Below, in pieces: positions 45,904-62,820 of a DNA stretch of 64,000 bases. The DNA comes from Labedella endophytica (GTDB taxonomy: Bacteria > Actinomycetota > Actinomycetes > Actinomycetales > Microbacteriaceae), in assembly GCF_003990045.1 (NCBI RefSeq), contig NZ_RZGZ01000001.1, positions 620,001 through 684,000 of the forward strand, given 5' to 3'. The position numbers and the translations under genes are program-made. The notes under the pieces are model-generated. The model had not been told where the DNA came from and did not search any database. It worked only from the letters and a program-made list of their open reading frames with translations. Position 1 is the first letter of the stretch, and each line of letters opens with the position of its first letter.

Positions 45904-46200
45904 TCAGTGCTCGTCGTAGTGGTCGGCGTGCTGAGCGTGCTTGTGGCCGTCGTGGACGAAGTCCACGTGGTCGCCGTGCTCGACGGCGTCGTGTCCGCAG
46001 TCGGTGCCGTGCGCGTGCTCCGCAGTGGAGTGCTCGGCCGTGGGCTCGTGCTCGTCGTAGTGGTCGCCGTGCTCGGCGTGGTGGTGCGCGTCGTGGAGGT
46101 AGTCGACGTGGTCGCCGTGCTGCACGGTGTCGTGTCCGCAGTCGGCGCCGTGGGCGTGCTCCGTGATGGTGTGCTCTGCGTGGGTCTCGGTCGTGCTCAT
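45904..46200 (-). CDS. Histidine-rich small metal-binding protein
   Basis: A 98-aa cytosolic protein with 26 His by count. It consists of two near-identical halves of about 37 residues (about 15-51 and 62-98), each with HAHG-DCGHD, HGDHVD and HADHYDEH-type segments and a single Cys. This composition indicates a zinc/nickel/copper-chelating store or chaperone. AAGGAAC precedes the ATG. It is 20 bases downstream of the arsR-type gene, so it is likely controlled by it or by metal through the shared promoter. Confidence 0.8.
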   Translation of the reverse strand: MSTTETHAEHTITEHAHGADCGHDTVQHGDHVDYLHDAHHHAEHGDHYDEHEPTAEHSTAEHAHGTDCGHDAVEHGDHVDFVHDGHKHAQHADHYDEH

Positions 46201-46220
46201 GGTTCTGTTCCTTTCGATGG

Positions 46221-46529
46221 TCACTCGGCCGGGTCCGGCCGGTCGGTCTCCTGCACGTGGGCGAGGGCGTCCGCGATCACGTGGGTGACATGCACGTCGG
46301 CGACGGAGTACGAGACTTCCTTGCCGTTGCGCGTCGCCGTGACGAGGCCGATCTGGCGCAGGAGGCGGAGGTGCTGGGAGACGAGTGGTTGCGACATTCC
46401 CGTCGTGTCCGCGAGAGCGCCGACGGTGCGGGACTCGTCTCCGAGCACTCGGAGGAGTCCGAGTCGCGACTCGCTTCCGAGCACCTTGAACAGCTGTGCT
46501 GCCGCTGCCAGTCCCGGTTCCTCGTGCAT
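46221..46529 (-). CDS. ArsR/SmtB family metal-responsive repressor
   Basis: A 102-aa winged-helix repressor: AAQLFKVLGSESRLGLLRVL, recognition helix MSQPLVSQHLRLLRQIGLV, wing RNGKEVSYSVADVHV, then a C-terminal helix HVTHVIADALAHV. The DVHVTHV stretch fits the alpha-5 zinc site of SmtB/CzrA sensors (D/H...H). Start at 46529 gives family length. It leads the small His-rich gene and is divergent from the surface-protein operon. Confidence 0.88.
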   Translation of the reverse strand: MHEEPGLAAAAQLFKVLGSESRLGLLRVLGDESRTVGALADTTGMSQPLVSQHLRLLRQIGLVTATRNGKEVSYSVADVHVTHVIADALAHVQETDRPDPAE

Positions 46530-46579
46530 GGCTCGATTCCACCACACATATAAAGACATTGCAATATATGCATCTAATC

Positions 46580-46592
46580 GAGAATGATTCCC
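46580..46592. promoter_or_regulatory. Zur-box-like 13-mer near arsR promoter
   Basis: GAGAATGATTCCC; its complement GGGAATCATTCTC matches the sites at 46658 and 63146 in the AATC-TTCTC core. It lies 51 bases upstream of the arsR start, so both divergent transcripts could be controlled. Confidence 0.5.
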
Positions 46593-46657
46593 ATCGCCAT
46601 CGGAAGCCGTGCGGAAACGGCAAGCGAACTTGGAGGGCGAAGCGTATTAATGCTAAA

Positions 46658-46670
46658 GATAATCATTCTC
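46658..46670 (+). promoter_or_regulatory. Zur-box-like 13-mer at surface-protein promoter
   Basis: GATAATCATTCTC, a pseudo-palindrome with one mismatch, directly before the -10-like TAAATT (46673-46678) and 45 bases before the ATG at 46715. The region is AT-rich compared with its surroundings. Confidence 0.55.
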
Positions 46671-46714
46671 ATTAAATTGATGGGATTCTCACTGCTCTTT
46701 GAGAGGCACCATTC

Positions 46715-49700
46715 ATGCACGTCTCCCGAACCACTCGGGCGGGCACGATCGCCGGAGTCGTCGCGCTCGCCGGCGCGCTGCTCCTGCCATCACCGGCGAA
46801 CGCCGCCGATGCGCCCGTCGTCCTCGACGACCCGATCACCTTCACCACCGGCCACATCGACGCCTTCAACCTCGCACTCAACGCCGACGACAGCGTCCAG
46901 CTCAACCTCAAAGAGGACGTGACCGGCTCGCACGTCCAGCGCACGCCGGAATCGGTCACCCTGGCCGTCAAGAGCCAGGCGGCCGTCGCGAACATCCCGG
47001 CCGGCGCCGTCCCGGCCGGTCTCCCGGAGGACTTCCACCTCCTCCCGCTCACGCAGGACTACGACCTCATCTGGCCTGGGTGGGACAGCCAGGGGATCGC
47101 GTCCGTCTACGGGGCGAACGCCAAGATCGACATCAACGTCACGAACGTCTCCGGACCGGGCGAGGTCTACCTCTGGTCGCAGGGTGGCTTCGGAACCCCG
47201 ACGCAGATCATCCAGAACTCCTGGAAGCTCCCCGGCACCATCCACCAGAACTTCACGAGCCACGTGCACTCCAACTGGGGCTTCACGCAGCCGGGCTCCT
47301 ACGGGCTGACCGTGCAGGCATCGGTGGCGAGCGCCGACGGGACCAAGACGTCCACGACGAACGTCGCCTCCTATTCCTTCGAGGTGTTCCCGGCTCCGAC
47401 CGCACTGTCGATCTCGGGTGCCGAGACGCCCGTCGCCGACGGCGCCGAGCTCACGCTCAGCGCGGCGCAGACGCCGGCCTCCTCGACGTTCTCCGACTAC
47501 GCGTGGTTCACACGCGCGTCGGACGGCGATGACTGGCAGGAGATCGCCGGAGAGGCTGGCGCATCGATCACGGTCGCCGCCGCGCAAGGCGCGCAGTACC
47601 GCGCGACCATCTCCGGTGGTCAGGACATCGCGAAGGGTTCGGGACAGCCCATCGTCGTCGAGTCCTCGCCGGTGACCGTCGCCATCGAGGCGCCCGTCGA
47701 GCAGACGGTCTCCCTCGCACCGCTCGCGGGCCACTACCACAGCGGCTCTCCCGTCGACCTCGTGGCCACGGCCACGCCAGCCGTCGAGGGCGCCACCTAC
47801 GCGTGGTACCTCCAGCGCTCCGATCAGGACGAGCCCGTCCGGATCGCCGGCGTCTCGGGTGCGACCCACCGTCTCACGGCCGAGCAGGCCCTCCACGGCG
47901 CCACCGTCACCGCCGAGCTCCTCGGAGCAGACGGCGCGAGCATCGCCCGTACCGCAGCCGTCACGATCGAGGTCGACGACCACGGATCGGCTCCGCTGCA
48001 GAAGGTCAGCATCACCGGTCTCGCCGACGAGTACGAGGTCGGCGCGGACATCGCGCTGACCGCATCGGTCGCACCCGCGTCCGTCCTCGACCGCTTCGAG
48101 TGGTATGTCCAGGTGACCGGTTCCACGGAACCCGTGCTCGTCGAGGGAGAGAACGGCCCGACCGTCACGATGGAGGCGACCGACGAGCTCGCCGGCGCCG
48201 CGGTCATCGCGAAGCTCACCTACTCCGACGGCACCGCCTATGTGGAGTCCGCCCCGGCGATCGTGACGATCGCCGACCAGGGTGAGGAGATCCCCGAGAC
48301 GGACCTGACCATCACGACGAGCCGCGACGCCGACGACTACTTCGTCGGTCAGACGGCGACGCTCACGGCCGTGCAGTCGGTTCCGACCGGCCTCGCGACC
48401 TACCAGTGGTACACGAAGCTCCCGGGAGCCGAGTCGTTCACGGCGGTCGAGGGACAGACGAGCGCATCCTACGCGTTCAAGCCCACGCTCGCGAACAGCG
48501 GCATCCAGGTCCGTGTCGAATTGGTCGACGGCGAGCGCGTCCACGCCGCCTCCGAGCCCGTCACGATCACGGCGGAGCAGCTCCCGGCGACGACGGTGCT
48601 GACCGTCGCGCAGGACAAGGCAACCTACGTCGCCGGCGACGTCGCTCACTTCGAGTCGACGCAGACGCCGCAGACGCCGCAGACCGAGGACGAGCACTAC
48701 CACTGGTACATCAAGCGAGCCGGCGCCGCCGACTACGTGTGGGTGGACCAGTCGCGTGAGAAGGACCTCGACCTCCCGGTCACCGTGGAGGACGACGGCG
48801 CCCAGCTCGTCATCCGCCTCTTCGATCACGACCACGCCGTTCTCGCGGAGTCCGCTCCCGTGACGCTCGCCGTCGAGCCCGTGGCCACCGAGCCCGAGCC
48901 CGTCGACACGGTCCTGTCGATCGACGGTCTCGTGGCGGCCTACGACGTCGGTGACGTGGCTGCACTGTCCGCCGTTCAGACGCCGGAGACCGGCGAGGAC
49001 CACTACCACTGGTTCATCAAGCGCTCGGCTGACGCGGACTACGCGATGATCTCCGGAGCGTTGTCGGCCGACCTGGCCTACACGATCGCCGAGGGCGACC
49101 AGGGTGCGTCGATCATGGCGAAGCTGTACAACCACGACCACGCGGTCATCGCGGAATCCGAGCCGGTCGTGCTCTCCGTGCGCTCGGGCGAGGCGAAGCC
49201 CGCCGATGCACCGGAGTCGCGGACGGGCGAGGAGCTCGACGGCGTCGAGGCCGGGGGCATCACGCTGTCGGACACGACCCCGGAACGTGGGCAGGTCATC
49301 ACCGTCCAGCTCGGCGACGACACGGCGTACGCCGGTCAGTGGGCGGCCGCGTGGCTGTTCTCCGAGCCCACTCTGCTCGGCGGGGACTGGGTCCGCGCCG
49401 ACGCGCAGGGCCGGATCGCGGTCACGATCCCCGCGGACGCGACGACCGGTGAGCACCGCCTCGCCGTCTTCGACGCCGACGGCGCCCTCATCGGGTGGGA
49501 CGACCTCGTGATCGCCGCCGCGGCCGACGTGCCCGGCGACGGTGACGCGGGCGACGCGGATGGCGACGGCGTCGCCGACGACACCGGAGACGGTGACGCG
49601 GGCGACGGCCTCGCCGTCACGGGTGGAGAGGCGGTCGGGCTCTTGTCCGGTGCCTCGCTCCTGCTCCTCATGGGAGCAGCCGCTCTCGTCGTCATGAAGC

Positions 49701-49729
49701 GCCGTCGGAGCTCCGCAGCAGCGGAGTGA
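46715..49729 (+). CDS. Sortase-anchored surface protein with choice-of-anchor M domain and Ig-like repeats
   Basis: A 1004-aa exported wall protein. A signal peptide ends about residue 31 (PANAAD). A choice-of-anchor-M type domain (about 40-235) carries H47-x-D49 and H183-x-H185-x-x-W. About seven Ig-like repeats follow (about 235-900), several with His clusters: GHYH (340-342), HYHW (661-664, 763-766), DHDHA/NHDHA (705-707, 807-809). The C-terminus is an Asp/Gly-rich linker, the LAVTG sorting signal (966-970, sortase E type), a transmembrane helix and a basic tail. Predicted role: extracellular metal capture for the ABC transporter downstream. GAGAGG precedes the ATG. Confidence 0.85.
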   Translation: MHVSRTTRAGTIAGVVALAGALLLPSPANAADAPVVLDDPITFTTGHIDAFNLALNADDSVQLNLKEDVTGSHVQRTPESVTLAVKSQAAVANIPAGAVPAGLPEDFHLLPLTQDYDLIWPGWDSQGIASVYGANAKIDINVTNVSGPGEVYLWSQGGFGTPTQIIQNSWKLPGTIHQNFTSHVHSNWGFTQPGSYGLTVQASVASADGTKTSTTNVASYSFEVFPAPTALSISGAETPVADGAELTLSAAQTPASSTFSDYAWFTRASDGDDWQEIAGEAGASITVAAAQGAQYRATISGGQDIAKGSGQPIVVESSPVTVAIEAPVEQTVSLAPLAGHYHSGSPVDLVATATPAVEGATYAWYLQRSDQDEPVRIAGVSGATHRLTAEQALHGATVTAELLGADGASIARTAAVTIEVDDHGSAPLQKVSITGLADEYEVGADIALTASVAPASVLDRFEWYVQVTGSTEPVLVEGENGPTVTMEATDELAGAAVIAKLTYSDGTAYVESAPAIVTIADQGEEIPETDLTITTSRDADDYFVGQTATLTAVQSVPTGLATYQWYTKLPGAESFTAVEGQTSASYAFKPTLANSGIQVRVELVDGERVHAASEPVTITAEQLPATTVLTVAQDKATYVAGDVAHFESTQTPQTPQTEDEHYHWYIKRAGAADYVWVDQSREKDLDLPVTVEDDGAQLVIRLFDHDHAVLAESAPVTLAVEPVATEPEPVDTVLSIDGLVAAYDVGDVAALSAVQTPETGEDHYHWFIKRSADADYAMISGALSADLAYTIAEGDQGASIMAKLYNHDHAVIAESEPVVLSVRSGEAKPADAPESRTGEELDGVEAGGITLSDTTPERGQVITVQLGDDTAYAGQWAAAWLFSEPTLLGGDWVRADAQGRIAVTIPADATTGEHRLAVFDADGALIGWDDLVIAAAADVPGDGDAGDADGDGVADDTGDGDAGDGLAVTGGEAVGLLSGASLLLLMGAAALVVMKRRRSSAAAE

Positions 49730-49746
49730 CCCGAAGCGTGTGACAC

Positions 49747-49780
49747 GCGGTGGCCGCCGGTTCGAACCGGCGGCCACCGC
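49747..49780. terminator. Perfect 34-base palindrome after the first surface-protein gene
   Basis: Perfect self-complementary 17-base arms. A second ten-bp stem (49787-49810, loop TCAC) follows at once. The pair could terminate partially and set the ratio of wall protein to transporter. Confidence 0.7.
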
Positions 49781-49830
49781 ATCCTCATGCGGGCCGTCAC
49801 CGGCCCGCATCTCGAATAGAAAGGTCCTCT

Positions 49831-51414
49831 GTGCCCACCCGCTCACGGAGCCGAGCCGTCCTCGCCGTCGCCCTCGGCGCCGCGCTCCTCTCCGGCTGCG
49901 CCACACCCACTCCCGCCTCCGAGCCGGAAGGCCTGCGCGTCGTCACCACGACCGGCATCCTCGCCGACCTCGCGCGGAACGTCGCCGGCGACCGGGCGGA
50001 GGTCCTCTCGCTCGTCCCCGAGGGTGGAGACCCGCACAGCTACGAGCCGAGCCTGCGGGACATCCGCGACATCGTCTACGCCGACGTCGCGTTCAGCAAC
50101 TACCTCATGCTCGAGGAGCAGAACCTCATCAAGGCACTCGACACGAACCTGCCGGACGGCGTCCCGAACATCTCGCTCGCCGAGGACGCGGTGAAGTACG
50201 CGGCCGAGATCATCCCGCTCGTCGAGGACGTCTCGCTCGACACGATCTGGCTGGGACTCCGTGTTCGCGGCGACGGCGCGGCGCTCAGTGCGACGCGCAC
50301 CTCGGACGTCCTCGTCTCGGCCACCGACATGGAGGGCCCAGGGGAGCTGCACGCGTACCTCACCGGGAGTTTCGGCGACGTCGACCGCTACATCGACTCG
50401 ACGGACGGGTTCGACGAGGCGGACGGGTACCGCGACGACACCGTCGTCCTCCCGCCCGACGCACACACCCACCTCAGCTGGGCCTTCTCGGAGCCAGGCA
50501 TCTACACGCTCGACCTCCGGGCGAAACTGCAGACCTCCTCCGACCAGCGCCCCGTCGAGGTCGCGAGCGGCGAGGTCACCTTCGCCGTCGGAGTCGACCC
50601 CTACTCGGTCCCCGGGAAGAGCGACGCCACGATCCTCGACGCCGGGCACTCCGACGTGACGCTCGACATGGACACGCAGTCCTTCACTGTGCTGCTCGAC
50701 CACGAACACGGTTCGGGCCACGTGCACCAGGAGTTCTTCGACCTCGACGACGTCGTCGTCGAGGTGCCGAACAAGGCGCTCCACGAGATCCCCGGCGACC
50801 CGGCCTATCGGTTCCTCGGCCGCGCGGGCAACCCGGTGTACCAGCTCCCGCAAGCCGTTCTCGGCAAGCACGTGCACGGGGAGATCGATCCGCACCTGTG
50901 GCAGAACGTCCGCAACGCGATGTCCTACGTCGAGATCATGCGAGACACCCTCATCGACGTCGACCCGGAGGGTGCCGCGACCTACACGGCCAATGCCGCG
51001 GTTTACCTCGAGGAACTCGCGGACCTGGACGCCGAGGTAGCAGCGACGATCGCCGAGGTGCCGAAGGCCAATCGCACCCTCGTGACGACGCACGACGCCT
51101 ACGGCTATCTCGCGCAGGCATACGACCTCACCATCTCCGGCTTCGTGACGCCGAACCCGGCGATCGAGCCGAGCCTCGCCGAACGGAAGCGGCTCACCGA
51201 GACGCTCCGCAACCTCGAGGTCCCAGCCGTCTTCCTCGAGCCGAACCTCTCCTCCCGCTCCTCGACGCTCGTCGAGGTCGCGGCCGACCAGGGCATCGCC
51301 GTCTGCGACATCTACGGCGACGCCTTCTCGGAGGACGTACCCACCTACATCGACATGATGCGCTTCAACGCGCAATCGATCCGCGACTGCCTCGGCGGCG
51401 CGAAGGAGAACTGA
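49831..51414 (+). CDS. ZnuA-like solute-binding lipoprotein with inserted anchor-M-type domain
   Basis: A 527-aa lipoprotein (lipobox LSGC, C23). The cluster 9 metal-binding fold is split. The N-terminal lobe with H69 (GDPHSYEPS) is followed by an insertion of about 220 residues, then the C-terminal lobe with H355 (DPHLW), H421 (TTHDAY) and D497 (IYGDAF), which are the four expected zinc/manganese ligands. The insertion contains both halves of the surface domain in reversed order (H212-x-H214 half first, H273-x-D275 half second). GTG 49831 has GAAAGG upstream. It would hand metal to the ATPase/permease encoded downstream. Confidence 0.87.
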   Translation: MPTRSRSRAVLAVALGAALLSGCATPTPASEPEGLRVVTTTGILADLARNVAGDRAEVLSLVPEGGDPHSYEPSLRDIRDIVYADVAFSNYLMLEEQNLIKALDTNLPDGVPNISLAEDAVKYAAEIIPLVEDVSLDTIWLGLRVRGDGAALSATRTSDVLVSATDMEGPGELHAYLTGSFGDVDRYIDSTDGFDEADGYRDDTVVLPPDAHTHLSWAFSEPGIYTLDLRAKLQTSSDQRPVEVASGEVTFAVGVDPYSVPGKSDATILDAGHSDVTLDMDTQSFTVLLDHEHGSGHVHQEFFDLDDVVVEVPNKALHEIPGDPAYRFLGRAGNPVYQLPQAVLGKHVHGEIDPHLWQNVRNAMSYVEIMRDTLIDVDPEGAATYTANAAVYLEELADLDAEVAATIAEVPKANRTLVTTHDAYGYLAQAYDLTISGFVTPNPAIEPSLAERKRLTETLRNLEVPAVFLEPNLSSRSSTLVEVAADQGIAVCDIYGDAFSEDVPTYIDMMRFNAQSIRDCLGGAKEN

Positions 51415-52385
51415 TGAAGACCCCCACCCTCCTCACGAGATCCCTCCTCGTCGCGACGACGGCAGCCCTCCTGCTGTCGGCGACGTCCGCCCAGGCGGCG
51501 ACCGACGACGACCTGGATCAGACGATCGACCCCGACCAGGCCCAGGGCACCGGCCAGGTGGTGCGCGACCGCGGTCACGTCGACTTCGGGCCGACGCTCG
51601 CGACCGGCGCGTGGGCGGTGCAGCTCCACGATGACACCGAGACCCCGAAGTACTGGCGCGACGTCGACGACGTCGTCCTGCGGGTGAACGATGCGTCGAT
51701 GCTCGAGGTCCCCGACGACGAGGCCTACGACTTCCTCGGACAGGAGGCGGGATCGGAGGTCTACGTGATTCCGCAGACCCAGAAGACCGATGTGATCTGG
51801 GTCGGCTGGAACACGCAGGAGCCCGGCGTGCTCGAGATCATGAACCTCGGGACGACGCTCAGCGTCCTCGGTGTGGACGGCCCCGGCGACGTGTCCGTGT
51901 ACCTCCAGAGCGGCAACTTCGGCGATCCCGAGCCCCTCTGGTCCACGAGCCAGCCGTTCCCGCAGCAGTCGTGGATCGAGGTGAACACCCACACGCACGC
52001 GAACTGGGTCTTCAGCGATCCCGGCGTGTACCTCGTGGACATCCGCTTCGACGCGGACCTGATCGACGGCACGACGGAGAGCGCCGAAGCGACCCTGCGT
52101 TTCGCCGTCGGTGACGAGACGAACGCAGACGACGCCTTCGACGCGGTCTCCACCGTCGACGAGGCGGCCGCCGGTGACGAGGCTGTTCCTGCGCCCGCCG
52201 AGGAAGAGTCGGATGCGAGCGGCGCGGACACCGCGTCCGGCATCCCGACCGCGGTCGTCGTGTCCGCCGTCGTCGGTGCCGTCACCCTCGCCCTCGTCAT
52301 CGCGGTCATCGTGATGCTCACGGCGACGCGCCGCGCGAAACAGCGTGTGCTCGCGGCCCGCGCCTCGAGGGAGGCCGGCGAATGA
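51414..52385 (+). CDS. Membrane-anchored choice-of-anchor M domain protein
   Basis: A 323-aa exported protein with signal peptide (ending about residue 27, AQAAT), one surface domain (H55-x-D57; PQTQKTDVIWVGWN; GPGDVSVYL; H193-x-H195-x-x-W), an acidic linker, a C-terminal transmembrane helix (about 280-303) and a basic tail. No LPxTG-like signal, so it stays in the membrane, where it could pass metal to the lipoprotein or permease. AAGGAGAA precedes the ATG, which overlaps the previous stop by one base; its end overlaps the ATPase start. Confidence 0.83.
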   Translation: MKTPTLLTRSLLVATTAALLLSATSAQAATDDDLDQTIDPDQAQGTGQVVRDRGHVDFGPTLATGAWAVQLHDDTETPKYWRDVDDVVLRVNDASMLEVPDDEAYDFLGQEAGSEVYVIPQTQKTDVIWVGWNTQEPGVLEIMNLGTTLSVLGVDGPGDVSVYLQSGNFGDPEPLWSTSQPFPQQSWIEVNTHTHANWVFSDPGVYLVDIRFDADLIDGTTESAEATLRFAVGDETNADDAFDAVSTVDEAAAGDEAVPAPAEEESDASGADTASGIPTAVVVSAVVGAVTLALVIAVIVMLTATRRAKQRVLAARASREAGE

Positions 52386-53143
52386 GCGAGTCGAGCACCC
52401 CGGCGCTCACCGTCAGCGACCTCACGGTGCACCTCGGGGGACGCCGGGTCCTCCACGACATCGACCTGTCGATCGAGACGGGCGAATTCGTCGGCCTCAT
52501 CGGACCGAACGGTGCCGGCAAGACCACGCTCCTGCGCGCCATCCTCGGACTCACGAGGCTGCAATCGGGCCGGGTCGCCGTCGACGGCACGGACGCGTCG
52601 CAGAACCGTTCCCTCATCGGCTACGTCCCGCAACGCCACGAGTTCGCCTGGGACTTCCCGATCTCGGTCGAGGACGTCGTGATGACCGGGCGGGTGCGTC
52701 GGATCGGTTGGCTCCGTCGGCCGGGACTCGTCGACTTCGATGCCGTCGCGGAAGCCCTCGAACGCGTGCACATGGATCACCTCCGCACGCGCCCCGTCGG
52801 AGAGCTCTCCGGGGGCCAGCGGCAGCGCGTGCTCGTCGCCCGCGCCCTCGCCCTCCGTCCGCGCCTCCTCCTCCTCGATGAACCGTTCACCGGACTGGAC
52901 ATGCCGACTCAGGAACTGCTCATCGACCTCTTCCGCGAATTGAGCGCCGAGGACAAGGCGGTGCTCATGACGACTCACGACCTCGTGGGCGCGCTCCACG
53001 AATGCTCCCGACTGTGCCTCATCAACCGCGCGATCGTCGCGGACGGTCCACCGGCCGCTCTCGACGACCCGGCCGTGTGGATGCGCACGTTCGACGTCAA
53101 GGCCACCAATCCGCTGCTCAAGACCCTGGGGGTCGTCGCCTGA
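52382..53143 (+). CDS. Metal ABC transporter ATP-binding protein
   Basis: A 253-aa ABC ATPase: Walker A GPNGAGKTT (about residues 39-47), Q-loop YVPQRHEF, signature LSGGQRQRVLVARAL, Walker B LLLLDEPFTGLD and H-loop TTHDL. It resembles ZnuC/MntB-type subunits of zinc/manganese importers. ATGA overlap upstream and TGATG overlap downstream place it in a single coupled operon with the lipoprotein, anchor protein and permease. Confidence 0.95.
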   Translation: MSESSTPALTVSDLTVHLGGRRVLHDIDLSIETGEFVGLIGPNGAGKTTLLRAILGLTRLQSGRVAVDGTDASQNRSLIGYVPQRHEFAWDFPISVEDVVMTGRVRRIGWLRRPGLVDFDAVAEALERVHMDHLRTRPVGELSGGQRQRVLVARALALRPRLLLLDEPFTGLDMPTQELLIDLFRELSAEDKAVLMTTHDLVGALHECSRLCLINRAIVADGPPAALDDPAVWMRTFDVKATNPLLKTLGVVA

Positions 53144-54084
53144 TGCTTTCTCCTCTCGATTTCCTGAAGGACCTCCTGAACCCGGACCTCGGGTTCCTCC
53201 CCAAGGCGCTCGTCATCGCCGTGATGTCGAGCATCGTGTGCGGTGTCATCGGCTGCTACGTCGTGCTCCGCGGGATGGCCTTCATCGGCGACGCCGTCGC
53301 CCACGCGGTCTTCCCCGGCCTCGCCGTGGCGTTCGTGATCCAGGGCAACCTCGTGCTCGGCGGTGCGGTCGCCGGTGTATTGACCGCGATCCTCGTGGCC
53401 GTGTTCTCGCAGAATCGGCGCATCAAGGAGGACAGCATCATCGGTGTGTTCTTCGTCGCCGCGTTCGCGCTCGGCATCGTGGTCATCAGTCGTGCTCCCG
53501 GCTACGCGGGATCGTTGCAGCAGTTCCTCTTCGGATCCATCACAGGCATCCCGGACGAGGACATCTACACCGTGGCCATCACGGGCATGATCCTCATGCT
53601 CGTCGTCTTCCTCTTCCACAAGGAGTTCGTCGCCGTCACCCTCGACCGGGAGACGGCCCGGTCCACAGGGGTCCCCGTCTTCGCGCTGGACCTCGTGCTG
53701 TACGTCATGGTCGCGGTGGCGATCGTGATCTCGATCCAGACCATCGGGAACATCCTCGTGCTCGCGCTGCTCATCACCCCGGCGGCCGCCGCGCGCCTCC
53801 TGACGGATCGGCTGGGCGTGATGATGCTGCTCGCCCCGGTCATCGGCGGCTCCTCGGCCCTCCTCGGGCTCTACCTGTCCTGGAGCCTCGACCTGCCGGT
53901 CGGCGGCGTCATCGTCCTCGTCGCGACGGCCGTGTTCCTCATCGCCTGGTTCTTCGCGCCCCGACACGGTCTCCTCATGGCCTACCTCCGGAGGAGAGCC
54001 GTCCCGATCGAGGGCGAGAGTGACGACGAGCGCGACCCGCTCACCGACGCAAGCGCCCGCGACCTCATCGGGACCCGCTCGTGA
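53143..54084 (+). CDS. Metal ABC transporter permease, ABC-3 family
   Basis: A 313-aa integral membrane protein with about eight helices and the ABC-3 pattern VLRGMAFIGDAVAHAVFPG, DSIIGVFFVAAFALG and ILVLALLITPAAAARLL (the coupling-helix region). It forms the zinc/manganese channel with the preceding ATPase. The cytosolic C-tail is acidic. GTGA overlap joins it to the next surface protein. Confidence 0.94.
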   Translation: MLSPLDFLKDLLNPDLGFLPKALVIAVMSSIVCGVIGCYVVLRGMAFIGDAVAHAVFPGLAVAFVIQGNLVLGGAVAGVLTAILVAVFSQNRRIKEDSIIGVFFVAAFALGIVVISRAPGYAGSLQQFLFGSITGIPDEDIYTVAITGMILMLVVFLFHKEFVAVTLDRETARSTGVPVFALDLVLYVMVAVAIVISIQTIGNILVLALLITPAAAARLLTDRLGVMMLLAPVIGGSSALLGLYLSWSLDLPVGGVIVLVATAVFLIAWFFAPRHGLLMAYLRRRAVPIEGESDDERDPLTDASARDLIGTRS

Positions 54085-57071
54085 GCCGGGTCGGGGCGCG
54101 ATCGCTCCGCCGCTCGACGACCGGCGTGAGTCTCGTCGCAGCCGTGCTCGCGAGTCTCCTGATCCCGTCCGGTGCGTCGGCCGCCGCCGCGCCGTCCGCG
54201 ATCTCCGCTGAGGGTGCGTCTATTCCGTCCATCCGCCAGGACGACACCGGGCTCGTCGTCGACATCGTCTCCGCATCCGGGGAACGTCACGACCCGTCGA
54301 CGACGATCATCGATGTCCCCGCCTCGGGCGCCGTCGGCGCCGCGCTCGACACCGACAGCGTCTCGAGCGGACCGGTCCGTCTCGACTGGGTGAGCGTCGA
54401 CCTGCCCGACGCGGGCACCCAGACCGACCCGTCGGTCTCCGTGCGGTCGGAACTCGGCACCGAGGTGCTCCTCGGCTCGGCCGAGGCGGGCCCGACGAGC
54501 GTCGACCTCTCTCCTCTGACCTCGAGCGCGGTCGAGTGGACCTTCGTCGGCGCAGGGGACTACCGCATCGAGATGCGGGTCACCGCGCTCGATGCCACGG
54601 GAGCGGAGAGCGGCCCGTCCACGTCCGCTGTCCTCTCCTTCCGCGTCGCCGGGACGACCGACCCGGAGACGCCGACGGATCCGGAGAACCCGAGCGACCC
54701 GGGGGCTCCAACCGATCCGGAGGCCCCGACCGACCCGGGAACCCCGACCGACCCGGGAACCCCCGGGAATCCGCCCCCTCCCGTCGACCCGACGATCCCC
54801 CCCGGGCAGTCGAGCCAGCCCGCCCCTGCGAGCAGCCAGAAGCGCGTCATCGGCGCCGTCCACACGGACATGGTGTCGGCCTTCCTCGACGGGGATGCGC
54901 TCACGCTCGACAGCAAGGCGGACATCGACATAGACGGGGACGGGGTCGACCTCGGCACCCGGCTGACGGCCACCCAGACGCTCTTCCACCTCGCCGGGGC
55001 GAGCAAGATGTCGATTCCGTCGAGTCCGGTCTTCTCCTTCCTCGGCACGCCCGGGGCGGACGTCTGGCTCGCGCCGCAGACCCAGGACCACGCCCTCATC
55101 TGGCCCGGTTTCAGCACCGAGCATCCGAGCCTGTCCGGGAAGGTCAGGGACGCGAAGCTCGCCATCAGCCTCCAGAGCGTGGACGGCCCGGGTGACGTCG
55201 AAGTCTTCCTGCAGGGCGGGACGAACAGCGTGACGCGCACGTTCAGCTCCACGACGGCGCTCGCGCCCTGGACGACCGGGGTGCCGCAGCACACGCACAT
55301 GAACTGGGCGTTCAGCGCCCCCGGCACCTACGTGATGACGTTCCAGGCACGCGGTGTCGTGGACGGACGCACGCAGACGGCTACGAACACCTACACGATG
55401 GTGGTCGGCGACCTCGCCGCGCATCGCGCGTCGACGGCCACGACCCTGCGAGCGGAACGACCATCCGCCCTGAGCGGGGCTCCGCTGCGTTTCACCGCGA
55501 CCGTCTCCCCGGCCGCTGCTGGAGCCGTGCAGTTCCGCGACCGCACCTCCGGCGTGATCCTCGGCCACACCCCCGTCACGGCGGGTTCGGCGAGCTTCGT
55601 CACGTCGGCGCTCGCCGCCGGACCGCACGACATCGTCGCCGAGTTCGTGCCGCGGTGGAGCAACGAGGCGTCTCCGTCCACCTCGAGAGCCGTGACGGTC
55701 ACCGTCGAGGGCGATGTGCGCGAGAAGCCGACCGCCGACGACACCACCGCTCCGACGAGCGCGGGCCTCGCGGCACTTCCCGGTGGCACCGACGTCATCG
55801 TGACCAACCCCTCCAAGAGGGTGGGTGCGTCGGGAACCCTCGGAGTGCGGGTCGTCGACACGGACCAGGCCGGTGAATGGGTGTCCGTCTGGTCGATCGG
55901 CCCGAAGACGGTGTGGCTCGGATGGATCCAGGCCGACCTGAACGGTGCCCTCACCGTGGACCTGCGCGCCCGGCTCGCCGTCGGGGCGCAGCGGGTCGCG
56001 GTGGAGGACACGGACGGGACGCTCGTCGGGTGGGATGCGTTCTCCGTCGTCGGCACACCGAGCGGTGGCGGAGGAGGCGGCAACGCCCCGGGCGGGGGTG
56101 GTGCTCCCACTGACGAAGGCGCGACGCCGGCACCGGCCGCGCCCGCTCAGAGCTGCGCGCCGGGGATCGTGCTCGAGAACGGGCACATCGATGCGTTCTT
56201 CGTCTCGGCGGCGAACGGAAAAGCCGTCCTCCAGCTGATGGAGGACGTGACCGGTCACCGCGTGGTGCGTGAGGCGGAGTCCGTGCTCCTGCGCGTCCGT
56301 GAGCCCGCCTACCGCTCGTCGATCCCGTCCGGCGCCCCCGGCACCTCGTCCGGATACGTCCTCCCCCTCACGCAGAATCCCGGACTCATCTGGCCGGGAT
56401 GGGACACGAACAGGACTGCGGCGAGCGGATACAGCGACGTGACGATCAACGTCACCGCCGTGAACGGCCCCGGCCGGGTCCACCTGTCGACCGCCGGCCC
56501 GTTCGGGGACGTGCGCTCCCTCCTCACGAACGGCGGGTACACGCTGCCCGGGAGCATCCGCGAGCCCGTACCCGTGCACACGCACGCCCAGTGGGTGTTC
56601 TCGGAGAAGGGGATCTACACGCTCACGGTCAACGCGGTCGCGACGGATCCCCGCACCGGGTCGTCGCTGCGCACGGCCCCCCACCGCTACGTCTTCCAGG
56701 TGGGGGATGCGCCTCTCGGCGACACCTTCTGCGGATTGAGGAGCTCGAGCGTGTCCGACGCGGCGGCCGTCAACGCGGCCGTCGACGAGGCCGCCGCCGC
56801 CGCGATCGCCGCTGACCAGGCGGCCGCCGAGGAGGCGGAGGAGAAGGCCGCGGCCGACGAGACGGACCGTGCAGCACGATCGGAGCGCGCGGGCGATACT
56901 GCGGACGCTCCCACCGATGCGACTCTGCTCGGCTCGACGACACCGTGGGCGCTCATCGTGATCCTGGCCGGTGGGGCGCTCGTCATCCTGGCGATCGCCG
57001 GGGGGACGATGGTCTACGTCCGCCGCTTGCGACGGAGCGAGGCGGCGTTCGTTCCCGGCAGCGGGAGGTGA
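54081..57071 (+). CDS. Large membrane-anchored surface protein with two choice-of-anchor M domains
   Basis: A 996-aa exported protein. Signal peptide ends about residue 35 (GASAAA). After an N-terminal beta-rich region and a Pro/Asp/Thr repeat (about 195-255) comes the first surface domain (H261-x-D263; H404-x-H406). An Ig-like module (about 450-560) and a further beta domain (570-660) follow, then the second domain (H702-x-D704; H833-x-H835), an Ala/Glu-rich segment, and a C-terminal transmembrane helix (about 955-978). Three classes of cell-surface anchoring thus coexist in the locus. GTG start coupled to the permease. Confidence 0.82.
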   Translation: MSRVGARSLRRSTTGVSLVAAVLASLLIPSGASAAAAPSAISAEGASIPSIRQDDTGLVVDIVSASGERHDPSTTIIDVPASGAVGAALDTDSVSSGPVRLDWVSVDLPDAGTQTDPSVSVRSELGTEVLLGSAEAGPTSVDLSPLTSSAVEWTFVGAGDYRIEMRVTALDATGAESGPSTSAVLSFRVAGTTDPETPTDPENPSDPGAPTDPEAPTDPGTPTDPGTPGNPPPPVDPTIPPGQSSQPAPASSQKRVIGAVHTDMVSAFLDGDALTLDSKADIDIDGDGVDLGTRLTATQTLFHLAGASKMSIPSSPVFSFLGTPGADVWLAPQTQDHALIWPGFSTEHPSLSGKVRDAKLAISLQSVDGPGDVEVFLQGGTNSVTRTFSSTTALAPWTTGVPQHTHMNWAFSAPGTYVMTFQARGVVDGRTQTATNTYTMVVGDLAAHRASTATTLRAERPSALSGAPLRFTATVSPAAAGAVQFRDRTSGVILGHTPVTAGSASFVTSALAAGPHDIVAEFVPRWSNEASPSTSRAVTVTVEGDVREKPTADDTTAPTSAGLAALPGGTDVIVTNPSKRVGASGTLGVRVVDTDQAGEWVSVWSIGPKTVWLGWIQADLNGALTVDLRARLAVGAQRVAVEDTDGTLVGWDAFSVVGTPSGGGGGGNAPGGGGAPTDEGATPAPAAPAQSCAPGIVLENGHIDAFFVSAANGKAVLQLMEDVTGHRVVREAESVLLRVREPAYRSSIPSGAPGTSSGYVLPLTQNPGLIWPGWDTNRTAASGYSDVTINVTAVNGPGRVHLSTAGPFGDVRSLLTNGGYTLPGSIREPVPVHTHAQWVFSEKGIYTLTVNAVATDPRTGSSLRTAPHRYVFQVGDAPLGDTFCGLRSSSVSDAAAVNAAVDEAAAAAIAADQAAAEEAEEKAAADETDRAARSERAGDTADAPTDATLLGSTTPWALIVILAGGALVILAIAGGTMVYVRRLRRSEAAFVPGSGR

Positions 57072-57967
57072 CGACGCCGGGGGACGACCGCGGCGACGTC
57101 GACGATTTCGATCGCGTCCTCGCGGGATCGACCAGGCGAAAGGGTGTCGAGGGCGGAGACGACGGTGCGGAGGACGGATACTCCGCACCGTCCGTGGGGC
57201 GACCGGCGACGATCGCGATGATCTCGATCGGGCTTCTCGGCGTCGTCGTCATCGCCGTGGGACTCCTCATCGGTCCCTCCGGCCGTCCTCCCGTGTCCGC
57301 GTCGGCTCCCGCACCCGCGCCCACCACGGCAGCGGAGACCGATGTGTCGACCGAGGAGTCGGACCCCGAACCGGAACCGGCCGACGAGGACCGCGGCACC
57401 GACATCACCACCCTCGTGTCGGCGACGTGGGTGGAGGAGCTCGCCGCCTCCACCGGCATCCCGCACCGGGCTTTGCTCGCCTACACGGGGGCGTCCGTCG
57501 CCGTCGATCAGTACTACCCCGGGTGCGGTCTCGGATGGAACACCCTCGCCGGGATCGGTCACGTCGAATCGGACCACGGTCGCATCCACGGTTCGGCTCT
57601 CGACGCGTCGGGCGTCGCGCGCCCCGCGATCGTCGGGATCCCCCTGACGGGCGAGACCACCGCGAGCATCCCGGACACCGACGGCGGTGCGCTCGACGGC
57701 GACGCCGTGTGGGATCGTGCCGTCGGCCCCATGCAGTTCATCCCCGGGACGTGGCGCGAGTGGGCGACCGACGGCGACGGAGACGGTGTCGCGGACCCGC
57801 AGAACGTCGACGACGCCTCCCTCGCCGCCGCCCGGTACCTCTGCGCCATCGGCGGCGACCTGACCGATCCGGAACGGTGGATCGCCGCCGTCGCCGGCTA
57901 CAACGACACCGTCGAGTACAACAATCGCGTCGCCGACGCGGCGTCCTTCTACGCGTCCCATTCCTGA
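57068..57967 (+). CDS. Membrane-anchored lytic transglycosylase
   Basis: A 299-aa wall hydrolase. An N-terminal cytosolic stretch and one transmembrane helix (TIAMISIGLLGVVVIAVGLLI, about residues 49-70) are followed by an acidic linker and an MltB/SLT-like lysozyme-fold domain: catalytic E167 in GHVESDHG, GPMQFIPGTWREW, VDDASLAAARYLC and AVAGYND. It cleaves peptidoglycan glycan strands. GTG at 57068 overlaps the upstream stop. Placement suggests it opens wall for the bulky surface complex. Confidence 0.85.
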   Translation: MTTPGDDRGDVDDFDRVLAGSTRRKGVEGGDDGAEDGYSAPSVGRPATIAMISIGLLGVVVIAVGLLIGPSGRPPVSASAPAPAPTTAAETDVSTEESDPEPEPADEDRGTDITTLVSATWVEELAASTGIPHRALLAYTGASVAVDQYYPGCGLGWNTLAGIGHVESDHGRIHGSALDASGVARPAIVGIPLTGETTASIPDTDGGALDGDAVWDRAVGPMQFIPGTWREWATDGDGDGVADPQNVDDASLAAARYLCAIGGDLTDPERWIAAVAGYNDTVEYNNRVADAASFYASHS

Positions 57968-58021
57968 CTTTCTCTGTCACACACACGACATCGCCGCCTC
58001 GCGGCTCGAAAGGTACCCCGC

Positions 58022-60766
58022 ATGAACACTCGTCCATCCGCCCGTCTCGCGTTCGCAGGGGCGGCCACGTTGGCCGTCTCCCTCGTCACCCCGTCCGCCG
58101 CGATGGCGATCGAGGGGCCACCGCCGCCCACCGTCGATACCACCGTGCTGAGCAAGCTCCACACCGACGCCGTGTCGACGTTCTGGACCGACGGTCGGTT
58201 CGAGCTCGCGACCGCCGCGGACCTGCCGGAAGGGACGGGGGTCCGGCTCGATCCGGCGTCGGTCGCGTTCGATATCGACGACGCCGCCAAGACGGTCGTT
58301 CCTGAGGGCTACGGCTTCATCGGGACCGCCGGGGAGGAGATGTGGCTCGCCCCCGAGACGGCCACCTCCGAGGGCGACGGCTACGCGACGCTCTGGCCGG
58401 GCTTCTCGACCGAATCCGTGCCTGCCGGTGTGCTCGTCGACGACGAAACGACCTTCACGCTCGAGGGCGTGGAGGGTCCGGGCGACCTCGAGGTCTACAC
58501 GGGGGGCGGTGTCGGCGGAGTCGAGCGCCTGTGGTCGAGCGACGAGGGGCTCTCGTCCTTCACGATCGCCCGCTCGCACATGCACGCGAACTGGGCCTTC
58601 ACGGCGCCCGGCACCTACACCCTCGACGTCCGCGCCGACGCCCGGACGGCGGGCGGCGCGGTGTCGGCGACGACCGCCTACACCTTCGTCGTCGGCGGGG
58701 TCGCACCCGCGACGTCCACGGGGACGACCCTCTCGGCGACACCGGGTCGCGTCGCCCTCGGCAGCACGGTCTCGCTCTCATCGAGGGTCACTCCGGCCGC
58801 GGCCACCGGGTGGGTCGAGTTCTTCGACGGCACGCGCAGCCTCGGTCACGACGTGGTCCAGGACGGCCGAGCCGCTCTCGACGTGGCCGACCTGCCCTTC
58901 GGGACGCGCCAGCTGAAGGCCGTCTTCACGCCCGAGAGGTCCGCCGACTTCTCGACCTCCTCCTCGAACCCCGCTCCGGTCACGGTCGTCGAGGACCTCG
59001 ACGGTGTCGACTTCGGCATCGAGGGGCTCGCGACGTCCTACGTCGCGGGCGAGATGATCGACCTGCGCGCCGTCGGTGTGACGCCGAAGGACGGCGAGCG
59101 CTTGTGGTGGCTCATCCGCGAGGGTGAAGGGGAGGGCGACTACGCGATGTCCGACGCGGACGGAACGCTGTTCGGAGACCGACTCACCCGAGACGCGACG
59201 ACTGCGCTCGACGGCGCCCAGATCGCCGTGGGCCTGATCGACGAGGACTACCGCACGATCCAGGAATCCGGATGGACCACCATCCGCGTCACCGGGGAGA
59301 ACGTCGGATCGGGCGAGAGCATGACGATCTCGGGGCTCGAGTCGAGCTACTACATCGGCGATCCCATCGAGCTCGATGTCTCCCACCGTGCGCTGCGTGA
59401 CGGTGAATCCCTGCGTTGGGTGAGCCGCGGGCTCCCGTACAGCACCACGTGGGCCGAGCTGTGGGAGGACCAGATTCCGCGGGGTGACGGCCCATACGCG
59501 ATGGACACCGGTGCCCTGCTCTATGCCGAGGCCGCGCTGCAGATCGTCGACGCCGACGGCGGAGTCGTCGGACAGACCGCGGCGATCCGGCCGGAGCTGC
59601 TCGAGCGCGAGCTGCAGGTGTCCGGGGTACGGTCCGTCTACCGCGCCGGTGACACCCTCGGGGCGACCTCCGACCTGTTCCCGGCACGGGAGGGAGTCGC
59701 CTACCAGTGGCTCATCCAGCGCGGATGGGAGCAGGAGGCCATCGAGGGCGCGACCGATCCCTCCGTCGAGCTCGGTGTGACGGCGGACCTCGACGGAGCC
59801 GAGCTCGTCCTGCGGGCGACCGACGCCCGGACCGGTTTCCTCATCGCTCAGACCGCGACCGTCGTGCGGGTCACGGACGCGGCACCGGGCGAGCAGATCG
59901 TCCTCCTCGAATCCCTCGCCGGCCACTACCACCAGGGCAACACCGTCAAGCTGCGGGCGAGCGCCGACCCCATCGCCTCCGACACCGACACGTACCGGTG
60001 GCTCTGGCAGCGACCGGACCAGGACGGGTTCACGGAGATCGCGGGAGTCACGACGGCGGCGCACGACGTGCGCGCCCAGCAGGCGCTCGACGGGACCCAG
60101 GTCATGGTCGAGTTCGTGTCCTCCGCCGGTGTCGTCCTCGCCACGAGCGAGACCGTGACGATCCACGTGGACGACCACGGCGCCGCCCCACAGGAGAAGC
60201 TGTCAATCGCGGGACTCGCGGACACGTACGCCGCCGGTGATGAGATCGCACTCGATGCGACGGTCACTCCGGACTCGGTCCTCCAGCGGTGGGAATGGCT
60301 CCTCCAGTCACCCGGCGAGGACGCCCCCACGGCGATCGCGGGACAGAACACTCCTGAACTGCGGATGACCGCGACCGAGGACCTCGACGGCGCCTCCATC
60401 GCGGCCCGGCTGGTCTTCGACGACGGTGAGACGTACATCGAGTCGACGCCCGTGACCCTGGCGGTGACGCCGGCCGCCGAGCAGCCGGCGGAGCCAGCCC
60501 CGCCGATCCCCGGTGAGCCGGACCCGTCGCTCCCCGGTGACGCGGACCCGTCGCCGGCGCCCCCGGCGGAGGGCGACAACGGACCCGGCGACGCCCCGGG
60601 AACGGACGATGCGGCCGCACCGGAGGCCGACGGCACCGACCGCACGGACGGCCTGGCGGTCACAGGGTCCGACGTGCTCGGGCTCCTGGCCCTCGTCCTC
60701 GCCGCGCTCCTCGCCGGTGCCGCCGCCATCGTGGCCGACCGCCGCCACCGCGCGAAGCGGTCCTGA
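58022..60766 (+). CDS. Second sortase-anchored surface protein of the metal locus
   Basis: A 914-aa paralogue of the 46715 gene. Signal peptide ends about residue 30 (AMAIE). One surface domain (H47-x-D49; H186-x-H188-x-x-W) is followed by Ig-like repeats, including the GHYHQG module and the VDDHGAAP linker that it shares almost exactly with the first protein. A Pro/Asp-rich spacer leads to LAVTG (from residue 878), a transmembrane helix and a basic tail. GAAAGG precedes the ATG. It closes the surface block. Confidence 0.83.
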   Translation: MNTRPSARLAFAGAATLAVSLVTPSAAMAIEGPPPPTVDTTVLSKLHTDAVSTFWTDGRFELATAADLPEGTGVRLDPASVAFDIDDAAKTVVPEGYGFIGTAGEEMWLAPETATSEGDGYATLWPGFSTESVPAGVLVDDETTFTLEGVEGPGDLEVYTGGGVGGVERLWSSDEGLSSFTIARSHMHANWAFTAPGTYTLDVRADARTAGGAVSATTAYTFVVGGVAPATSTGTTLSATPGRVALGSTVSLSSRVTPAAATGWVEFFDGTRSLGHDVVQDGRAALDVADLPFGTRQLKAVFTPERSADFSTSSSNPAPVTVVEDLDGVDFGIEGLATSYVAGEMIDLRAVGVTPKDGERLWWLIREGEGEGDYAMSDADGTLFGDRLTRDATTALDGAQIAVGLIDEDYRTIQESGWTTIRVTGENVGSGESMTISGLESSYYIGDPIELDVSHRALRDGESLRWVSRGLPYSTTWAELWEDQIPRGDGPYAMDTGALLYAEAALQIVDADGGVVGQTAAIRPELLERELQVSGVRSVYRAGDTLGATSDLFPAREGVAYQWLIQRGWEQEAIEGATDPSVELGVTADLDGAELVLRATDARTGFLIAQTATVVRVTDAAPGEQIVLLESLAGHYHQGNTVKLRASADPIASDTDTYRWLWQRPDQDGFTEIAGVTTAAHDVRAQQALDGTQVMVEFVSSAGVVLATSETVTIHVDDHGAAPQEKLSIAGLADTYAAGDEIALDATVTPDSVLQRWEWLLQSPGEDAPTAIAGQNTPELRMTATEDLDGASIAARLVFDDGETYIESTPVTLAVTPAAEQPAEPAPPIPGEPDPSLPGDADPSPAPPAEGDNGPGDAPGTDDAAAPEADGTDRTDGLAVTGSDVLGLLALVLAALLAGAAAIVADRRHRAKRS

Positions 60767-61938: not shown

Positions 61939-62820
61939 CTACTCCTTCTTCAGCTTGTCCTGGGCCGCGCCCGCGAGCTTCTCGACGGTGTTGGGGAGTT
62001 CCGTCGTGCCGTAGAAGCGGGAGTCCGGGTGCGTGGGAGGCGGCATGGGGACGCCGGCCTCGGGCTCGGCCAGGTAGGAGAATTTGCCCTTGCCGTCCGG
62101 TGTCGGGCCGCTCGCCCAGGAGCCCTCGGCCGCCGCTGCGCCATCCGAGAAATTGATGTACTGGTACGACACGTCGCGCTCCTCGTGCTTCAGGGGGAAG
62201 TTGCTCGGAACGGGGAAGTCCTCGATGCCTTCGGCCCGCAGTTCCGCCGCGGCCGCCATCCACTGGTTCTGGTGCATCGTGTCCCGCGCCAGAAGGAACG
62301 AGAGCAGATCCCGCACGCCGTGGTCGTCGGTCATGTGGTAGAGCCGGGCGACCTGGACCCGCCCCTGCATCTCGGCGTTGGCGTTCGCGGTGAAGTCGGC
62401 GAGGAGGTTTCCGCTCGCCGTGATGTAGCTGCCCTGCCACGGGTTGCCCATGCTGTCGACGGGACGCGCTCCTGCACCCGCGACGATTCCCTGCTGGATG
62501 TCGGTGCCGCCGATGACGGCGGCGACCGTCGGATCCGCCTGGACGGCATCGTCGGTGATCCCAAGGGGCGACTTCTCGAGGAGCTGGGCGATCATGACCG
62601 CGAGCATCTCGACGTGCCCCATCTCCTCCGCGCCGATGCCGAAGACCAGGTCGCGGTACTTGCCGGGGATGTGCATGTTCCAGGCTTGGAACTGGTACTG
62701 CATGGCGACGGTGATCTCGCCGTACTGACCGCCGAGGACCTCCTGGAGCTTGCGGGCGTACACAGCGTCCGGTCGTTCGGGCGTTGCGGCGTGTTGCAAC
62801 TCTTGTCGGTGGAAGAACAT
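61939..62820 (-). CDS. Manganese catalase
   Basis: A 293-aa non-haem catalase using a di-manganese centre to dismutate H2O2. Ferritin-like ligand motifs are seen: E35 region (GQYGEITVAMQYQFQ), GIGAEEMGHVEMLA, then a second pair in MQGRVQVARLY and DTMHQNQW. Length agrees with the family. AAGGAGTG precedes the ATG. Manganese rather than iron use fits a lineage with dedicated Zn/Mn uptake. Confidence 0.93.
   Translation of the reverse strand: MFFHRQELQHAATPERPDAVYARKLQEVLGGQYGEITVAMQYQFQAWNMHIPGKYRDLVFGIGAEEMGHVEMLAVMIAQLLEKSPLGITDDAVQADPTVAAVIGGTDIQQGIVAGAGARPVDSMGNPWQGSYITASGNLLADFTANANAEMQGRVQVARLYHMTDDHGVRDLLSFLLARDTMHQNQWMAAAAELRAEGIEDFPVPSNFPLKHEERDVSYQYINFSDGAAAAEGSWASGPTPDGKGKFSYLAEPEAGVPMPPPTHPDSRFYGTTELPNTVEKLAGAAQDKLKKE

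Follow-up and report, generated by a model that had tools for sequence, protein, structure and literature searches.

The window examined here is a stretch of 64,000 nucleotides from Labedella endophytica, and between positions 45904 and 60766 it carries a locus that probably encodes a Zur-controlled zinc importer together with zinc-binding surface domains. We place the probability of this reading as a whole, Zur control included, at roughly 0.7. The surface domain is the choice-of-anchor M domain (CAM; NF038134, cut-off 55), and in the lipoprotein of the importer itself this domain is, by profile alignment and predicted strand order, circularly permuted. Sequence comparison also indicates that the permuted copy replaces most of the flexible histidine-rich loop of ZnuA. 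Judged by gene order and motifs, the locus is the equivalent of the znu cluster of Corynebacterium diphtheriae, so that a system worked out in one pathogen extends to many actinobacteria, with the importer present in 61 of 396 genomes of the order.

In the mechanism that we propose, zinc limitation would release Zur from the operators (46579 and 46657), and expression of the cluster would follow. CAM domains, each with a His-x-Asp/His-x-His (HxD/HxH) motif, would then sit in the wall, at the membrane and inside the lipoprotein of the importer. The surface domains would bind zinc and concentrate it near the importer, zinc on the permuted domain would move through a short invariant His-Val-His (HVH) segment to the ZnuA site, and zinc from that site would be imported by the ATPase and permease. 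We infer the order of transfer between the compartments and the intramolecular last step. Stepwise transfer of metal from wall to membrane to lipoprotein, the relay put forward in an earlier note on this DNA, is at best a tentative proposal whose odds fall short of even.

The locus contains ten genes, two on the minus strand (the histidine-rich and ArsR genes) and eight on the plus strand. Family-profile searches and reading of the open reading frames recovered every gene named in the earlier note, and its assignment to the "anchored repeat" and choice-of-anchor M families agrees with scores above the cut-offs for all three transporter subunits and four surface proteins. The features are as follows.

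45904–46200, minus strand: histidine-rich protein of 98 amino acids with two histidine-rich repeats (open reading frame reading; 26.5% histidine)
46221–46559, minus strand: ArsR/SmtB repressor (NF033788, 79.9 bits, cut-off 55)
46579–46593, no strand: Zur-like operator, two mismatches to TGANAATNATTNTCA (sequence match)
46657–46671, no strand: Zur-like operator, one mismatch to TGANAATNATTNTCA (sequence match)
46715–49729, plus strand: LAVTG wall protein with one CAM domain and a long repeat stalk (NF038134, 139.7 bits)
49730–49830, plus strand: strong double hairpin in the gap between wall gene and lipoprotein gene (folding of 49720–49835)
49831–51414, plus strand: metal-binding lipoprotein, the ZnuA counterpart, with a permuted CAM domain at the His-loop position (TIGR03772, 753.9 bits, cut-off 350.45)
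51414–52385, plus strand: membrane-anchored single-CAM protein, the ZnuE counterpart (NF038134, 193.5 bits; modelled C-terminal helix)
52382–53143, plus strand: ATP-binding cassette (ABC) ATPase (TIGR03771, 359.6 bits, cut-off 268.8)
53143–54084, plus strand: ABC-3 permease (TIGR03770, 462.6 bits, cut-off 296.8; PF00950), for which the sequence used in the family searches started two codons 5' of the ATG at 53143
54081–57071, plus strand: multi-CAM protein, the ZnuF counterpart, with a C-terminal helix (NF038134, 280.8 bits; TIGR03773, 237.3 bits)
57068–57967, plus strand: SLT_2 lytic transglycosylase (PF13406, E 6.5e-8; start overlaps the preceding gene)
58022–60766, plus strand: LAVTG wall protein with one CAM domain and an immunoglobulin (Ig)-like stalk, at the ZnuG position (NF038134, 150.6 bits; PF16640)

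The association of surface domain and importer was followed in two samples of 396 genomes each, one from the order and one from the phylum. Within the order CAM was found in 67 genomes, in 64 of them above the cut-off, and every one of the 61 genomes with a permease over the cut-off also contains CAM, which upholds the unity of surface genes and transporter proposed in the earlier note. The remaining six of the 67 are without a permease over the cut-off. Three of these (G471, G676 and G686) have the weakest CAM scores and must, by elimination, be those that miss the CAM cut-off; the other three (G553, G613 and G624) are assemblies of 77%, 73% and 90% completeness, the last with 7% contamination. 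The stretch examined in G471 contained a permease-like match and not a CAM match. Four genomes of the phylum sample contain CAM, three of them with a full lipoprotein over the cut-off. Overall the permease exceeds its cut-off in 63 of 70 CAM genomes, and on these counts surface domain and importer appear almost inseparable.

The arrangement of the genes was compared in 66 loci of relatives, which are the 78 collected minus 12 without a full lipoprotein; they are not all independent, as they include two records of one strain, a near-identical pair (L031 and L032) and several close relatives. The order solute-binding protein (SBP), CAM protein, ATPase, permease is found in the window and, by an automatic rule, in 56 of the 66. 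The ten misses comprise five short contigs, four cases of overlapping or broken reading frames and one locus (L089) without an ATPase match. Named relatives with such loci include Streptomyces, Lentzea and Leucobacter. The distribution is patchy, and the other tested genome of the same genus (G811) is without CAM. The two near-identical loci are filed under Frigoribacterium sp. JB110 and Microbacterium esteraromaticum and share 98.4% identity over 16.2 kb, which suggests that the locus moved recently from one genus to another or that one record is misnamed.

Regulation by zinc is indicated by the operators. With up to two mismatches to TGANAATNATTNTCA the window has two sites where 0.07 would be expected, and both lie in the divergent promoter. 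With at most one mismatch the pattern occurs in only two places of the 3.67-Mb genome, at 46657 and at a second ZnuA-type locus, where the site overlaps the start of the listed reading frame of a second ZnuA-like lipoprotein that is followed by an ATPase and a permease. A Fur-family gene follows, past a MarR-like gene that is encoded on the opposite strand. That the second locus (L113, C1:279000-287500) is a zinc importer is a judgement, based on its nearest models and on the histidine-rich loop of its lipoprotein, which is very rich in His, Asp and Glu. Among the relatives' loci a box with at most two mismatches stands beside the start of a CAM or SBP gene in 46 of 66, compared with a mean of 2.07 of 66 for 60 shuffled control palindromes. 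The box matches in these loci are concentrated accordingly, with 61 in the 10.6% of bases near CAM or lipoprotein gene starts and 41 elsewhere. The highest-scoring control, NAATGATNATCATTN, was found in 35 of 66 loci and was kept in the control mean, although it is apparently the same palindrome in a shifted register. The Zur consensus of Streptomyces coelicolor has a 7-1-7 layout, and Zur control of the C. diphtheriae anchored-repeat operon had already been predicted (PMC2823685).

The zinc link made in the earlier note is supported by the Zur-like operator, by the metal-type lipoprotein and by data on C. diphtheriae, where zinc represses the znu cluster through Zur (PMC6711530) and the thermal stability of ZnuE, ZnuF and ZnuG shifts when zinc is added (PMC12445094). 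The same observations bear on the possibility that the metal transported is mainly manganese, or another metal, rather than zinc. Among solved structures, the best sequence relatives of the lipoprotein bind Mn and are lipoproteins themselves (5hx7 and others), and the ATPase has manganese MntA as its second-best model. The runner-up models for lipoprotein and permease are AztC and AztB, at scores under the respective cut-offs. With a Zur-like operator common to the window and the second ZnuA-type locus, and with the regulation and thermal response of the counterpart in C. diphtheriae, we consider manganese or another metal highly improbable as the main substrate.

The lipoprotein has the fold of a metal-binding SBP (TMt 0.76–0.86 among the 50 matches listed), and the domain that interrupts it was described in the earlier note as the surface domain inserted. 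The domain is indeed present, and it is its two halves that depart from a simple insertion. Aligned with the NCBIfam CAM profile, profile positions 77–184 match first and positions 2–73 after them, and the lipoproteins of three other genomes (G214, G246 and G784) have the same reversed order. By rule, with a profile made in this study, the reversal was found in 63 of the 66 relatives' loci, and on inspection the remaining three are reversed as well; L091 had been missed by the threshold, and the SBP of L093 and L094, which are records of a single strain, is split over two reading frames. Simple insertion of a CAM domain in the SBP was therefore rejected. Profile positions 27–77 overlap in both halves and could be read as part of a second domain, a possibility that was not adopted since the predicted strand order, matched by eye, gives one complete domain.

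We then exchanged the halves of each insert by script and aligned the result with a profile built only from ZnuE-like proteins. With its halves exchanged, the window insert matches as one full-length domain of 84.4 bits, while the natural order gives fragments of 47.7 and 39.6 bits and a random rotation gives an intermediate 61.0 bits. At least 150 of the 189 profile positions are covered by 64 of 67 lipoproteins in exchanged form, by none of 67 in natural form and by 17 of 67 under random rotation, and the exchanged form scores above the natural one in 65 of 67. AlphaFold2 models of the ZnuE-like protein and the lipoprotein (mean predicted local distance difference test scores, pLDDT, of 90.7 and 85.0) agree with this, in that the last nine strands of the former precede its first eight elements in the latter when matched by eye. 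A short helix at 111–116 of the ZnuE-like model is not listed in the lipoprotein model.

The insert extends from after precursor residue 98 to just before the zinc histidine of DPHLW, and at this position the genome's own ZnuA paralogue carries a His/Asp/Glu-rich loop. A histidine-rich stretch precedes DPH in eight of 16 insert-free SBPs listed from the loci retrieved; the motif was not detected in four of the 16, and for L107 the pattern picked up a DPH that comes earlier in the sequence. The sequence HVHGE in the window lipoprotein seems to be the retained end of the histidine-rich loop, and both histidines of its HVH are invariant in 67 lipoproteins; in the model of the window lipoprotein they fall in a stretch of pLDDT below 50. 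Also invariant in these 67 are the HxH and HxD of the permuted site and ZnuA histidines 48 and 334, and H400 and D476 are nearly so. Numbered from the lipid Cys, the permuted site comprises H191, H193, H252 and D254, the HVH histidines are H326 and H328, and the ZnuA site comprises H48, H334 and, assigned by position, H400 and D476. Two insert-free SBPs (L098, 9836–10930, and L099, 9830–10942), from assemblies named Thermoflexales and Candidatus Roseilinea, have a histidine-rich stretch before DPH and a Zur-like box upstream, and possibly picture the arrangement before insertion. The permutation at the His-loop position is the part of our findings that we did not find in print, with the literature judged by titles and the beginnings of abstracts, by which none of the papers retrieved deals with this family. 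PMC12445094 notes only the reversed motif order in ZnuA, and "permut" appears nowhere in it.

Four surface proteins of the locus exceed the NF038134 cut-off of 55, two that end in LAVTG and two that end in a plain membrane helix. The C-termini of both wall proteins consist of LAVTG, a hydrophobic stretch and a basic tail, and the genome has four sortase genes. Support for the wall anchor comes from this C-terminal anatomy and not from the dedicated LAVTG model NF058582, against which the two proteins score 22.5 and 18.0, below the cut-off of 27. The protein at 54081–57071 contains two intact CAM domains and a degenerate one and no recognised sortase signal. It is the only one of the four above the TIGR03773 cut-off of 190.3 bits, the others scoring 182.0 (51414–52385), 127.3 (46715–49729) and 118.1 (58022–60766). 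The three modes of surface anchoring described in the earlier note stand as predicted classes, with the qualification that ZnuF, the counterpart of the second membrane protein, was found in tight association with the wall in the absence of any known sortase (PMC12445094).

Each surface protein of the locus carries HxD/HxH, in the order that is reversed in the lipoprotein. Of 251 distinct CAM domains of full length, 239 have both HxD and HxHxxW. Outside its CAM domain, the first wall protein (46715–49729) has five HxH motifs (HYH, HDH) in the stalk, which are possible extra metal sites; 14 other long-stalk wall proteins were examined, of which eight have two or more HxH and six have none. No solved relative of the CAM domain was found in the PDB at E 0.001 by phmmer or Foldseek, the best results being one sequence match at E 0.34 and a fold match at 1.8e-3.

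The counterpart in C. diphtheriae consists of znuA-znuE-znuC-znuB and znuF-znuG-dip0444-dip0445, together with cmrA/cmrA2, and was characterised in 2025 (PMC12445094). With this work, the study of Zur repression (PMC6711530) and the prediction of Zur control (PMC2823685) published, the statement in the earlier note that the mechanism is undescribed has to be withdrawn. Deletion of znuE lowers growth in low zinc to the level of a transporter deletion, and exchange of the HxD/HxH histidines for alanine abolishes both the complementation by znuE and the effect of znuG on growth (PMC12445094). The znuE defect fits a relay.

A number of observations weigh against the reading of the locus as a Zur-controlled zinc importer with zinc-binding surface domains. 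One genome of the phylum sample (G226, 96% complete), one of the four that contain CAM there, has a single over-cut-off CAM domain in a large protein and no permease over the cut-off, and no importer component was found in the 15 kb around the CAM gene. This is the case of surface genes lacking the transporter that the earlier note regarded as incompatible with its model, and it shows that the tie between domain and importer is not absolute. The HxD/HxH of this protein (L114, 6269–8362) is intact. The proteins encoded at the second ZnuA-type locus all score below the NCBIfam cut-offs. At two mismatches to TGANAATNATTNTCA the genome has seven places, compared with three for the reversed control pattern, so the weaker sites alone are uninformative, and palindromes of a similar kind also serve Fur-type regulators that respond to other metals. 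In C. diphtheriae the effect of znuA deletion was modest in the strain tested, single deletions of znuF and znuG caused no growth defect, and ZnuE with alanine in place of the histidines still responded to zinc, so that the motif is a candidate for the zinc site (PMC12445094).

The last of these points bears on a structural role, in which CAM domains would be docking or wall-spacing modules, their His/Asp residues a structural metal site and the permuted copy a dock for surface proteins. Such a role would suit the long Ig-like or repeat stalks of the wall proteins, the transglycosylase, which the window cluster shares with 18 of 66 relatives' loci, and the thermal zinc response retained by the histidine-to-alanine ZnuE (PMC12445094). 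The loss of znuE complementation and of the znuG effect in the same kind of mutant speaks against it, and we regard it as rather improbable.

The absence of a defect in the znuF and znuG single deletions counts against a relay and is one of several results that a surface store or sink could explain, in which CAM proteins would buffer, hoard or compete for zinc without handing it over by direct contact. Deletion of znuF-445 in a strain without znuAECB restored peak growth, plasmid-borne znuF or znuG cut growth, ZnuF and ZnuG lower growth when the transporter is missing, and sequestration and storage are discussed by the authors (PMC12445094). Loss of the entire znuF-445 operon made the lag longer (PMC12445094). 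By our analysis the published znuF and znuG phenotypes would fit such a store equally well. The znuE deletion, by which loss of a CAM protein brought growth down to the transporter-deletion level, does not favour a store, and neither does the presence of a CAM domain inside the lipoprotein itself, nearly always co-occurring with the importer. A store is a real possibility, to which we give less than even odds.

Delivery to the importer is favoured by the permuted domain in the lipoprotein; this rearranged surface domain in place of the histidine-rich loop is a structural reason to expect a direct hand-over. In a more specific version, zinc would be handed along the surface by homotypic contacts between CAM domains, and the permutation, which tethers the domain at another pair of strands, would fix its zinc site over the ZnuA cleft, with the last hop made within the molecule through HVH. 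This version is unlikely as it stands. If it were true, one domain would serve the wall, the membrane and the importer, and the copy in the importer would have a topology rewired for delivery.

The remaining genes of the cluster are less constant. The earlier note treated the histidine-rich protein and the ArsR repressor as parts of the system, and they are better regarded as accessory. The ArsR search matched three of the 66 relatives' loci and the histidine-rich search five, two of the five being records of one strain, whereas the transglycosylase search matched 18 (these tallies count a match anywhere within a locus). The histidine-rich gene is present in seven of 60 genomes of the family including this one, several of the matches covering about half of it, and of the six other genomes only G784 has CAM while five are CAM-free. 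The pair was accordingly rejected as a core component. No family match was found for the histidine-rich protein at E 0.01 in NCBIfam and Pfam searches. The ArsR protein has the sequence DVH-x10-HVQE (DxH-x10-HxxE) at residues 88–104 and no cysteine, which we take to be the alpha5 zinc site of SmtB/CzrA. The divergent promoter could plausibly combine a zinc-excess switch for a histidine-rich buffer protein, back to back with the zinc-starvation operon. The transglycosylase may make room in the wall.

From the lipoprotein gene to the SLT gene, each of the five junctions is an overlap of one or four bases, and because of this the six genes look translationally coupled; the gap from the transglycosylase gene to the last wall gene is 54 bases. 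The two strong hairpins at 49730–49830 are without a T-run. Folding of 49720–49835 gave z -6.9, none of 200 shuffles being equally stable, and the hairpins may determine how much wall protein is made relative to importer. A promoter scan of the locus found none, and terminator-like sites numbered three compared with 2.4 expected. Just past the cluster a manganese catalase is encoded at 61939–62820 on the minus strand (NF052557, 383.9 bits, cut-off 350).

By names and scores, the system corresponds to the NCBIfam anchored-repeat set (TIGR03770, TIGR03771, TIGR03772, TIGR03773, TIGR03769 and NF038134), the three transporter subunits of the window being over their cut-offs and the CAM proteins over that of NF038134. 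It resembles ZnuABC and AztABC in its ABC-3 permease, ATPase, metal SBP fold and zinc-type operator, and differs from them in the attached surface proteins and in an SBP with a permuted CAM domain where the paralogue has a His/Asp/Glu-rich loop. The natural replacement of such a loop makes it testable how the histidine-rich loops of zinc lipoproteins deliver metal. The Isd and Hta heme relays likewise have one ligand-binding domain in wall, membrane and lipoprotein; their ligand is different, and no NEAT or HtaA domain is among the Pfam matches of the window at E 0.01. The pneumococcal Pht proteins are surface zinc-binding proteins proposed to feed the zinc lipoprotein AdcAII (PMC12445094), and contain a different domain, their HxxHxH motif being absent from all four CAM surface proteins of the window. 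The closest likeness is to C. diphtheriae znu, with which the window shares the order of SBP, CAM membrane protein, ATPase, permease, multi-CAM protein and sortase-anchored CAM protein, the HxD/HxH motif with its reversal in the SBP, and Zur control, predicted for the window by operator match. Unlike C. diphtheriae, the window has a wall CAM gene directly upstream of the znu-like genes, a transglycosylase between the F and G counterparts and a divergent ArsR/histidine-rich pair.

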